The notes below the pieces were generated by a model. The model worked only from the letters and a program-made list of their open reading frames with translations. It searched no databases and was not told where the DNA came from. Below, piece by piece: positions 55,435-58,789 of a stretch of DNA of 64,000 nucleotides. Origin of the DNA: Moritella yayanosii. Lineage in GTDB: Bacteria > Pseudomonadota > Gammaproteobacteria > Enterobacterales > Moritellaceae. Location of the stretch: assembly GCF_900465055.1 (NCBI RefSeq), contig NZ_LS483250.1, positions 2,418,001 through 2,482,000 of the forward strand, written 5' to 3'. Within the stretch, counting starts at the first letter, position 1. Each line of letters opens with the position of its first letter. The translations under genes were made by a program, and so were the position numbers.

Positions 55435-56700
55435 ATGGACTTCGAAAGTCTCGATCTAGACCCTGAATTAATTGCAGCACTTACTGATAATAATCTTGTT
55501 CAACCGACATTGATTCAACAGCAAGTACTGCCAACCGCCATGGAAGGTAGAGATATCCTTGCATCTGCACCGACTGGTACAGGTAAAACGCTGGCATTTT
55601 TATTACCAGCTATTCAACATCTGCTTGACTTTCCACGTCGCGAATTAGGTCCTGGACGCGTACTTATCTTGACGCCAACGCGAGAACTCGCGAGTCAGGT
55701 ATTCCAACAAGCTAAAATGCTAGCGGCTTATACTGACCATAAAGTATCGATGGTCACGGGTGGTGTTGATTATGCTCTACACGCTGAAGTATTAAAAAAT
55801 AACCTTGATATTGTCATTGCCACGCCGGGTCGTTTATTAGAATACATCCGCCGTGATGCATTTGAATGTGCAGCCATTGAAATACTGATCTTAGATGAAG
55901 CTGACCGCATGTTAGATATGGGCTTCTATGATGACGTGAAAAGAATCACTGATGAAATGACCCGTCGTCAACAAACAATGCTATTTTCTGCAACCCTAGA
56001 AGGTCGCGGTATTGATCGTTTTGCTGAAGAACTATTGAAAGAACCTGTTGAATTTAGAGCGAATCCTTCTCGTAGAGAAAAAGCTAAAATTCATCAGTTC
56101 ATGCACCATGTTGATAATCACGCACACAAGCAAGCCTTGTTAGTGCATTGGTTACGTGATGAAAGCACCACACGTTCTATCGTGTTTGTAAAAACCCGTG
56201 AACGCCTTGCCGAGCTTGTTAGCTACCTGCAATCACAAGACATCGCGTGTGCATATTTACGTGGTGAAATGGATCAAGCGAAACGTACGCGTTCTTTGAA
56301 CCAGTTCAAAAATGATAAAGTAAAAGTGCTGGTTGCTACCGACGTTGCAGCTCGCGGTATTGACGTACAAGATGTAAGCCATGTATTTAACTTTGACTTA
56401 CCACGTAGTGCTGAAATTTATGTTCACCGTATTGGTCGTACAGCACGTGCCGGTAAGAAAGGAACAGCGATCTCATTGGTTGAAGCGCATGATCTACGTA
56501 TCTTTGGTAAAATTGAACGTTATACCGAAGAAACAATTAAGCGTCGTGTAATTCAAGATTTGAAACCAAAGAATAAAATTACAGCATCGAAAACGAAGAA
56601 AAAAGCGAAAGTAACGACGACTGGTAAAAATAAAGCATCAGCGAAAGCCAAGCTTAAAGCCAAAAAACGTACCAAGAAAAATAAATCTAAAAGCAAGTAA
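55435..56700 (+). CDS. srmB: DEAD-box RNA helicase SrmB
   Basis: A 421-aa ATP-dependent RNA helicase that helps early 50S assembly. The Q motif, ASAPTGTGKT (I), PTRELA (Ia), LDEADRMLD (II), FSATLE (III) and HRIGRTARAG (VI) are all present. The C-terminus is a Lys-rich tail of about 45 residues (KTKKKAKVTTTGKNKASAKA), as in SrmB. I chose the ATG at 55435, which gives the SrmB-like start FESLDLDPELIAAL. It ends at a terminator just before the convergent RNA gene. Confidence 0.95.
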   Translation: MDFESLDLDPELIAALTDNNLVQPTLIQQQVLPTAMEGRDILASAPTGTGKTLAFLLPAIQHLLDFPRRELGPGRVLILTPTRELASQVFQQAKMLAAYTDHKVSMVTGGVDYALHAEVLKNNLDIVIATPGRLLEYIRRDAFECAAIEILILDEADRMLDMGFYDDVKRITDEMTRRQQTMLFSATLEGRGIDRFAEELLKEPVEFRANPSRREKAKIHQFMHHVDNHAHKQALLVHWLRDESTTRSIVFVKTRERLAELVSYLQSQDIACAYLRGEMDQAKRTRSLNQFKNDKVKVLVATDVAARGIDVQDVSHVFNFDLPRSAEIYVHRIGRTARAGKKGTAISLVEAHDLRIFGKIERYTEETIKRRVIQDLKPKNKITASKTKKKAKVTTTGKNKASAKAKLKAKKRTKKNKSKSK

Positions 56701-56737
56701 TCGTTCAAACCAACAATTACTTAAATTAGTAAGAACC

Positions 56738-56769
56738 GAAAAGGCGTTAAATTTATTTAGCGCCTTTTT
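56738..56769 (+). terminator. terminator of srmB
   Basis: GAAAAGGCG...TTTA...CGCCTTTTTT forms an A-rich hairpin with an 8-bp GC core and a run of T on the plus strand, about 40 bases after the srmB stop. Confidence 0.75.
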
Positions 56770-56790
56770 TGTATCTGCATAAATCCCAGA

Positions 56791-56820
56791 TATAGAAAAG
56801 GCGGCACAGTGTGCCGCCCT
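56791..56820 (-). terminator. terminator of the CsrB-type RNA
   Basis: GGCGGCAC (56800-56807) and GTGCCGCC (56811-56818) form an 8-bp stem with a 3-nt loop. On the minus strand it is followed by TTTTCTAT. It is the expected 3' end of the RNA read from right to left. Confidence 0.8.
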
Positions 56821-57430
56821 AAAGTCTCTATCTCTCAATCCATGAAACGCGTAGCAACCCTGCTAAATCCTGACTCTATTTATTCCGTTAAATTTCCACT
56901 TCCCAATCCATCGGAGTGTCCTTTTACCTTCCTGGCACAATAAATCGATCCTGATTTATTTCTATGTTACATCCTGTAACTTAATCCTTTGGTCTTCTTC
57001 CTGAAGCTGTCCTGTGTTACATCCTGTAACTTAATCCTTTGGTCTTCTTCCTGAAGCTGTCCTGTGTCGCATCCTGCAACTTAATCCTTTGGTCTTCTTC
57101 CTGAAGCTGTCCTGTGTTACATCCTGTAACTTAATCCTTTGGTCTTCTTCCTGAAGCTGTCCTGTGTCGCATCCTGCAACTTAATCCTTTGGTCTTCTTC
57201 CTGAAGCTGTCCTGTGTCGCATCCTGCAACTTAATCCTTTGGTCTTCTTCCTGAAGCTGTCCTGTGTTACATCCTGTAACTTAATCCTTTGGTCTTCTTC
57301 CTGAAGCTGTCCTGTGTCGCATCCTGCAACTTAATCCTTTGGTCTTCTTCCTGAAGCTGTCCTGTGTTACATCCTGTAACTTAATCCTTTGGTCTTCTTC
57401 CTGAAGCTGTCCTGTGTCACGTCCTTGTGC
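56795..57430 (-). ncRNA. csrB: CsrB/CsrC-family CsrA-sequestering RNA
   Basis: A predicted RNA of about 636 nt on the minus strand. Nine 50-nt units each carry four GGA motifs, two of them in small hairpin loops: GUUAC-AGGAU-GUAAC and CUUC-AGGAA-GAAG. The repeats CAGGAUG and CAGGAAG match the E. coli CsrB repeat CAGGA(U/A/C)G. About ten more GGA motifs lie in the unique parts, including AAUAAAUC-AGGAUC-GAUUUAUU near 56950. In total about 46 GGA are visible. A promoter-like sequence precedes it and a terminator ends it. Such RNAs titrate the translation regulator CsrA and are driven by BarA/UvrY-type systems. The csrB name is by class, not proven orthology. Confidence 0.85.
56961..57410. repeat. 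nine tandem 50-bp units inside the RNA gene
   Basis: The period is exactly 50 bp, with units starting at 56961 (partial first bases), 57011, 57061, 57111, 57161, 57211, 57261, 57311 and 57361. Between units only the hairpin stem varies: GTTAC...GTAAC (units 1, 2, 4, 7, 9) or GTCGC...GCAAC (units 3, 5, 6, 8). The rest is identical. There are no unique spacers, so it is not a CRISPR array. Confidence 0.97.
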
Positions 57431-57435
57431 TTATA

Positions 57436-57463
57436 AATATACGCCATTAACGCAGCACAACAA
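57436..57463 (-). promoter_or_regulatory. promoter of the CsrB-type RNA
   Basis: On the minus strand TTGTTG (57458-57463) and TATATT (57436-57441) are 16 bases apart, giving a start near 57430. An alternative is TTGTGC with TTATAA (57431-57436), 18 bases apart. Confidence 0.55.
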
Positions 57464-57557: not shown

Positions 57558-57641
57558 AGTGTAAGACCAGACATGAAATCGAGATAAACACCGTCATAAG
57601 ACGTCTATATCCCCCACTATAAATAGTCGATGTCTTACACT
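57558..57641. promoter_or_regulatory. distal dyad half-sites upstream of the RNA gene (UvrY/GacA-like)
   Basis: AGTGTAAGAC (57558-57567) and GTCTTACACT (57632-57641) are perfect 10-bp inverted arms 64 bases apart, about 130-210 bases upstream of the RNA start. Each holds TGTAAG/CTTACA, the half-site known for GacA/UvrY. The spacing differs from the usual compact 18-bp palindrome. The remaining bases from 57464 to 57735 are A+T-rich and I see no gene in them. Confidence 0.45.
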
Positions 57642-57740
57642 TGAGGATCTGCCAACTCAGCAGATAATATTGTTGATTAACAATACACAGGACATACCCA
57701 AACTAAAGTTGTGATTATTAAAATTTTACGATAAATAATT

Positions 57741-57862
57741 CTGTCAAAATCAGAACTTGTGGCCGCAGTTTCCAATGCCGGTGGTTTAGGTATTTTAGCA
57801 ACTGGGCCATTGAGCCAGGAAGAAACCCGCACTGCAATTAGAAAGATCCGTAACCTCACTGG
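57741..57862 (+). pseudogene. remnant of a nitronate monooxygenase/FabK-like gene
   Basis: About 40 codons encode SELVAAVSNAGGLGILATGP and LSQEETRTAIRKIRNLTG, matching the N-terminal region of the nitronate monooxygenase/FabK family after its first strand. An in-frame stop lies two codons upstream, and similarity ends at an 11-bp inverted repeat (57852-57862 with 57876-57886). Both ends of the gene are gone. Confidence 0.65.
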
Positions 57863-57886
57863 TACTCCGCAATTGCCAGTGAGGTT
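57852..57886. repeat. 11-bp perfect inverted repeat at the end of the remnant
   Basis: AACCTCACTGG and CCAGTGAGGTT flank a 13-nt loop. It marks the point where similarity to the oxygenase family stops, so it may be a deletion junction or a small repeat insertion. From here to 58099 I see no gene. Confidence 0.6.
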
Positions 57887-58099
57887 GATCTACCATTTTG
57901 GAAACTCGTTGCAGGGGTATTTGTGCAGTTCGACAAGATCAAGCAACTCTCTTATTTTGGTGCCTGAACAGAGAAAATAGAAGTAATATCGACGATTCAA
58001 CACCCTAGCTCAGAGATTAACAGGGATAACGAATAAGATAGAAGGATGTATCACGACTCCCTTATATCTATACCCAATTAGATTAGTCGGTCAATTAGA

Positions 58100-58789
58100 T
58101 TATGCAGACCAGTCAGATAACGCTTGTAAACTAAAACTTTGCACACCAACACGCATAATCACCTCATTTTGTAATATCTCTAAGATCTCCACATCATCAC
58201 TTAACCAACTACCTTCTCGTAAGTCTCGATTATTAAGACGCACACTGCGACTTTTAGCGTTCGACGAATATATATGTGAGCTATAATTAATGTCCGGTAT
58301 TTGTGCGCGTAAGTACTGTGGTAACTCAGCGAGAGGGACGGCATTATAACTTTCTGCAACCGCGTTTACAGAGATATTATCGTTATCACTTGTTGCTGTT
58401 AGCGCACGATTAAACTTAGCCAGTAGTTCTGGAGACACCTGCTCATTGGCTAATTCCGCATTCATGGTTAATAACTCAGAGGGCTGACCCGCTGGCACTG
58501 CAGGCTTGCTACCCGATACAATCAAAACGGGTAAGTTATTTTCTGAATACGACGCTGATACCGACGTGACTGGAATGCGGATCACCGAGAGCGGATACGC
58601 AAATTCAATATCTGGTAACTTTAAAATAATCAGCGGATCGGTTTGTTCAACGCCGACTGAAACAGCCCTCACCACATCGATACTGTTATTTACATTACCC
58701 ATTGCAAGTAAGACTGGACTCCATAAGACACTAGCAAAGCTAACACTTATACTGAATATAATTAACGTTTTACCCACTACAAAATTCAT
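58100..58789 (-). CDS. exeB: type II secretion assembly protein ExeB/GspB
   Basis: A 229-aa protein with an N-terminal signal anchor (about residues 7-30) and a C-terminal GspB domain: AVPLAELPQYLRAQIPDINY, SSHIYSSNAKSRSVRLNNRDL and LREGSW. With ExeA it helps place the secretin ExeD in the outer membrane. Length is like Aeromonas ExeB. Its ATG overlaps the exeA stop by 4 bp. The rest of the type II secretion operon is not in this window. Confidence 0.88.
   Translation of the reverse strand: MNFVVGKTLIIFSISVSFASVLWSPVLLAMGNVNNSIDVVRAVSVGVEQTDPLIILKLPDIEFAYPLSVIRIPVTSVSASYSENNLPVLIVSGSKPAVPAGQPSELLTMNAELANEQVSPELLAKFNRALTATSDNDNISVNAVAESYNAVPLAELPQYLRAQIPDINYSSHIYSSNAKSRSVRLNNRDLREGSWLSDDVEILEILQNEVIMRVGVQSFSLQALSDWSA

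Follow-up and report, generated by a model that had tools for sequence, protein, structure and literature searches.

A probable CsrA-sequestering CsrB RNA gene built from 50-nucleotide modules whose number differs between Moritella species

Layout of the array gene and its relation to CsrB

We analysed a 64,000-nucleotide stretch of the Moritella yayanosii genome (the window) and focused on 641 nt of its minus strand, read from position 57430 to 56790, between a convergent srmB gene and a gspB-like gene. In 5′ to 3′ order this array gene starts with a leader of 16 nt, continues with nine units, all exactly 50 nt long, and closes with a 3′ domain that is not repeated and ends in an intrinsic terminator; candidate regulatory elements lie upstream:

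58100-58789, minus strand: gspB-like upstream neighbour (NF037978, 70.6 bits, below the cut-off of 100)
57622-57639, minus strand: UvrY-like upstream box TGTAAGACATCGACTATT, sharing 15 of its 18 positions with the UvrY/SirA site of Salmonella csrC (PMC4682653, in excerpt)
57558-57567, minus strand: second, inverted half-site GTCTTACACT, at −137 for all 18 array-gene starts, allowing one substitution
57431-57442, minus strand: inferred promoter −10 region GTATATTTATAA, conserved at gene starts
57415-57430, minus strand: 16-nt 5′ leader of the RNA, with 57430 as the inferred first base
56965-57414, minus strand: array of nine 50-nt units; of the four GGA per unit, two lie in predicted hairpin loops and two between hairpins
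56790-56964, minus strand: non-repeated 3′ domain of the putative CsrB RNA, within the Rfam match 56790-57126 and homologous to csrB1
56798-56820, minus strand: terminator-like stem of the intrinsic terminator
55435-56700, plus strand: srmB (RNA helicase), convergent neighbour (NF008394, 650 bits, cut-off 507)

The open stretch on the plus strand at 57735-57978 (LVAAVSNAGGLGILATGPLSQEETRTAIRKIRNLTG...), between gspB and the upstream box, reads like what we take to be the remnant of a nitronate-monooxygenase-type gene.

Tandem Repeats Finder reported a period of 50 at 56965-57425, with 9.2 copies, 95% matches and 0% indels, and together with the unit count this confirms the nine 50-bp minus-strand units described in an earlier reading of the DNA made from its letters alone (the sequence-only reading). 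Each unit contains two potential hairpins with GGA in the loop, hairpin A (CUUC-AGGAA-GAAG) and hairpin B (GUURC-AGGAU-GYRAC), and two kinds of unit, distinguished by one hairpin stem (GUUAC-AGGAU-GUAAC or GUUGC-AGGAU-GCGAC), follow one another in irregular order along the array. Start-to-start distances between GGA motifs within the array run through a repeating 12-11-14-13 cycle. The earlier estimate of about 46 GGA held up exactly, with 46 in 636 nt compared with a mean of 23.3 and a maximum of 33 in 500 dinucleotide shuffles and a background mean of 4.3 per 636-nt stretch on both strands of the window; the CsrB repeat CAGGA(U/A/C)G, which had been described as directly visible, occurs 19 times.

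A search with Rfam covariance models, proposed in the sequence-only reading as a check of its CsrB assignment, agreed with that assignment: RF00018 (CsrB) matched 56790-57126 with 82.9 bits, above its gathering score of 71, and a second RF00018 match at 57149-57426 scored 70.8 bits, just short of the threshold of 71. Two further CsrB matches above threshold occur in the same genome, C1:3116230-3116541 (csrB1) and C1:3117803-3118120 (csrB2), which flank a 219-aa open reading frame (L077 1001-3125) and are each preceded by a UvrY-like box (15/18 and 14/18 matches). Aligned with csrB1, the array gene's 3′ domain scores 120, above the maximum of 51 in 300 shuffles; its match to csrB2 is weak (57, shuffle maximum 48). 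We do not claim that the 50-nt unit arose from csrB1 or csrB2, as the alignment scores of 30 and 29 fall below the 300-shuffle maxima of 33 and 35, the likeness to csrB1 being one seen by eye. We also set aside a plus-strand CsrC match at 56715-56771, which scored 22.7 bits against a threshold of 61 and covers the hairpin following srmB, and a plasmid origin, for which the single matching record, from Aeromonas caviae, covers 11% at 74% identity.

Upstream elements and partner genes

Judged from its letters, a putative UvrY/GacA site lies upstream of the array gene. The UvrY-like box begins at −209 in all 18 array-gene starts from 11 genomes, with 14-16 of 18 matches, where −209, like the −137 of the inverted half-site, is counted from one start inferred from sequence. 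The TGTAAGACATCGACTATT box fits the symmetric consensus TGTAAGN6CTTACA more poorly, at 8 of 12 positions, and in E. coli the UvrY site of csrB is centred at −183/−182 (PMC4682653, in excerpt). At the gene start, GTATATTTATAAGCACAAGGAC recurs with up to three substitutions at all 18 gene starts, which were themselves located via GTATATTTATAAGCACAAGGAC with the same tolerance. The sequence-only reading had framed the array by a promoter-like sequence and a terminator; the terminator end of this frame is matched by the terminator-like stem at 56820-56798, but the promoter end did not find the same backing, since a sigma-70 consensus scan returned no site on the minus strand and its only hit lay on the plus strand.

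The presumed regulatory partners are encoded in the same genome. A UvrY/SirA/GacA-family regulator scored 406.6 bits (cut-off 280) and BarA 1277.3 bits (cut-off 890), and each of the 11 Moritella genomes, the window's included, has one PF02599 match above cut-off for csrA. The csrA gene (G000 C1:2495906-2496061) shares a contig with the array in all 11 genomes and sits roughly 20-24 kb from the first array start, a conserved neighbourhood of sponge and target genes in Moritella.

Occurrence, unit number and constraint

A 921-bp probe found the locus in every one of the 11 Moritella genomes. Of 394 genomes sampled from the order, covering 115 genera, 10 contained the unit pattern itself with up to three mismatches, and all 10 are Moritella; no other genus in this sample had it, and the eleventh Moritella, G002, was likewise without a match. 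When 158 genomes of the order were searched for CsrB, 86 had a match, all 11 Moritella among them, and, among the matches listed in that search, same-strand neighbours separated by fewer than 250 nt occurred in Moritella only. A separate search found closer-spaced CsrB neighbours elsewhere, in G048 (200 nt) and in G044 (79 nt, a partial match), the latter at a locus with a 57-bp repeat of 2.1 copies. Tandem csrB genes as such are not special, because runs of complete csrB genes close together are common outside Moritella. Five CsrB matches in a row on one strand, spaced about 700 bp apart, lie at C1:4533806-4536939 (L017) in G018, from another family of the order, and three in succession lie in its congener G042.

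Ungapped self-similarity at the best lag was 0.80 for the window array and 0.31-0.42 for 28 GGA chains from outside Moritella. Other Moritella array chains reached 0.43-0.89 and ordinary Moritella csrB genes up to 0.46, and because these two ranges overlap the measure fails to separate the shortest arrays. The sequence-only reading had pointed to both regularity and size as departures from E. coli CsrB, and the two fared differently: the near-perfect 50-nt array stands, whereas large size is ruled out as a novelty by a CsrB region in another family (G055 C44, L007 1255-1826) that holds 42 GGA over 571 nt with no visible period. Among the matches listed from the open-licence PubMed Central literature, titles and abstract starts contained no tandem-module CsrB and no paper on Csr in Moritella. 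The unusual part of the locus is the module array and its variable module number, not size or tandem genes.

Unit number differs between Moritella species. Thirteen complete gene copies from eight genomes contain 3-13 units, with lengths of 339-853 nt and 22-62 GGA, and some Moritella genomes carry tandem gene copies. The window copy has 9 units, and the others have 6 and 7 (G003), 3 and 3 (G007), 10 (G008), 11 (G009), 13 (G010), 9 with one unit broken by N (G006), and 4, 10, 8 and 3 (G004); one genome per species was compared, and the variation is therefore between species. Five more copies possess a start but are cut short by the end of their contig (a single copy in each of G004, G006, G002, G005 and G001) and stand outside the 13; G001, G002 and G005, having no complete copy, contribute no unit numbers to the 3-13 range. 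Other contig ends in G004, G005 and G006 carry pieces of the terminator side without a start. In G004 the gspB side and the srmB side fall on separate contigs (L070 and L071; C43 and C93), which, if both represent one locus, would give at least five gene copies of 3 to 10 units each.

Exactly four GGA occur in 91 of 91 full, N-free units when the array is cut at hairpin B and in 93 of 93 when it is cut at hairpin A, where either cut presupposes one of the four GGA, a different one in each, and where one N-containing unit of G006 and units truncated by contig ends or the array end are left out. Variable columns are fewer within GGA (2/12) than among the others (20/39), a marginal difference (Fisher p = 0.048) drawn from units that are not independent. 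In hairpin B, columns 31 and 39 pair as A-U in 14, G-C in 92 and G-U in 3 units, with A-C in none of 109 units, a count that leaves out one of 110 cores, in which an AGGA reads GGGA. Across the 34 distinct cores 99.7% of cells pair, a level reached by 0 of 500 shuffles, and for hairpin B the share is 99.4%. Changes on both sides affect one pair only, a count equalled in 358 of 500 shuffles, and hairpin A shows no variation among units and hence no covariation support; the covariation accordingly rests on one pair. Mean unit similarity is 0.951 within the same gene, 0.931 to other genes of the same genome and 0.928 to other genomes, and the within-gene value exceeds the label-permutation maximum of 0.937 (n = 300).

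Interpretation, alternatives and known systems

We consider it highly probable that the locus is a third CsrB-type small RNA gene of a Moritella species, modular in build, and, as part of the same judgement, that it encodes a BarA/UvrY-driven CsrB that sequesters CsrA. The sequestering reading is supported by the RF00018 match, the GGA excess, the csrA, UvrY and BarA genes, the conserved boxes and the four-GGA units. BarA would activate UvrY, and phosphorylated UvrY would turn on the array gene via the upstream box; the transcript would then present nine 50-nt modules with four CsrA sites each, followed by the conserved 3′ domain and terminator, and CsrA held on the GGA sites would be withheld from its mRNA targets. 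Modules may be gained and lost through slippage or unequal recombination while promoter spacing, the 3′ domain and four GGA per module are retained, so that species would differ mainly in the number of CsrA sites offered per transcript. The sequence, its family, its conservation, the variation in module number, the one covarying stem pair and the partner genes are observed directly; that the RNA is made, answers to UvrY, binds CsrA and sequesters it, and how the modules mutate, we infer. The CsrA SELEX consensus is RUACARGGAUGU (PMC3856055, in excerpt), and by our own comparison the first unit kind contains UACAGGAUGU, which equals this consensus minus its first R and second R. E. coli CsrB, with 22 putative sites, binds 18 CsrA dimers according to an excerpt of PMC3856055 and about 18 CsrA subunits according to one of PMC7652899; by either ratio, 46 GGA would be expected to hold roughly twice as many CsrA.

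As a hypothesis, unit number could serve as a dosage dial for CsrA titration. A bolder form, which we regard as doubtful, casts csrB as a repeat-number rheostat in which the four-site module slips fast enough to vary within populations and yields heritable set points of CsrA titration with no change in promoter or protein; if true, a contingency-locus mechanism would act on RNA-sponge stoichiometry and not on reading frame or promoter. Neutral slippage is a serious rival to the dial. It would leave the CsrB function real and the unit number near-neutral, with two ordinary csrB genes and a few units sufficing, and in denying only the dial it is compatible with the sequestering reading; we rate it a strong contender that falls just short of being probable. 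Two ordinary csrB genes are indeed retained in the genome, total unit number differs widely (6 in G007, at least 25 for the complete G004 copies) with a single csrA in each, and the homogenisation of units within genes is what slippage alone would produce. Against full neutrality, the retention of four GGA by all 91 units and the unchanging distance to the promoter elements show selection on the module and the promoter, though they give no such indication for module number.

Predicted folding bears on how the sites would be offered. At 37 °C and with pairing limited to a span of 40, hairpin A had a mean pairing probability of 0.83 and hairpin B one of 1.00, while 46 of 46 GGA were more than half unpaired; with no span limit these values were 0.14, 0.80 and 29 of 46, and the arms of hairpin A paired across units. 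At 10 °C, 45 of 46 GGA were more than half unpaired with local pairing and 25 of 46 with no limit. The whole-RNA fold of −150.1 kcal/mol has a z of −7.3 against 20 shuffles, a value inflated by the repeats themselves. The arrangement of two GGA in hairpin loops and two in single strands per unit, as originally proposed, thus survives under local pairing but not, for hairpin A, under unrestricted folding, and whether hairpin A pairs locally or between units is the chief uncertainty of these structural models. The unrestricted fold favours a multivalent scaffold, in which hairpin A arms would pair between units or molecules and CsrA dimers would bridge sites, giving compact or condensed RNA-protein particles in place of simple one-by-one titration; CsrA dimers can bridge sites 10-63 nt apart (PMC7652899, in excerpt), and the array GGA lie 11-14 nt apart. 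We judge the scaffold very improbable: in such calculations, repeats that are identical can always pair between units, and CsrA binding would favour open GGA.

It is very improbable that the array is an assembly error in which an ordinary csrB or a shorter array was wrongly expanded or collapsed. Contigs do end inside the array in G001, G002, G004, G005 and G006, and artificial tandem expansions are described for the first Vibrio fischeri assembly (PMC2330054, in excerpt), but the window's genome is one contig, the two unit kinds alternate irregularly, and uninterrupted arrays with their own unit variants are present in six genomes (G000, G003, G007, G008, G009 and G010); the exact unit number could still be off. 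A repetitive protein or non-functional satellite DNA, as tandem arrays often are, has a negligible chance given the covariance-model match and the conserved promoter spacing, and a coding repeat was rejected on finding no open reading frame of 80 aa or more within 56795-57430 and a unit length of 50 that is not a multiple of 3 and shifts the frame every unit.

CsrA regulates globally at the post-transcriptional level, and its sites on sponge RNAs are usually fixed in number and set in irregular sequence. In Moritella the putative CsrA-binding region is modular and varies from 3 to 13 copies between related species with promoter spacing fixed, and sponge size thus appears easily changed in evolution. 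On the sequestering reading, these arrays form a natural series in which to study how regulation depends on the stoichiometry of the sponge, and a good test case for whether tandem-repeat mutation can tune a regulatory RNA.

Among known systems, Shewanella oneidensis CsrB1 and CsrB2 are BarA/UvrY-dependent and have a TGTAAGN6CTTACA-type box, in likeness to the putative control of the array gene, but measure 420 and 421 bp, with no tandem array mentioned in the excerpt of PMC3171408. Pseudoalteromonas fuliginea likewise combines several Csr sRNAs in one cold marine bacterium, although its Pf1, Pf2 and Pf3 have 25, 21 and 9 GGA and the excerpt of PMC11882849 mentions no tandem-unit array. E. coli CsrB (RF00018) shares with the Moritella RNA the covariance-model match, many GGA in and between loops, an intrinsic terminator and a UvrY-like box upstream, whereas its 366 nt and 22 putative sites (PMC3856055, in excerpt) contrast with 641 nt and 46 GGA in periodic array. 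Vibrio species carry multiple csrB genes, including csrB4 of V. tasmaniensis, as extra copies made by gene duplication (PMC6262261, in excerpt), and Moritella also has tandem whole-gene copies; where whole genes are duplicated in Vibrio, Moritella additionally multiplies a module within the gene.
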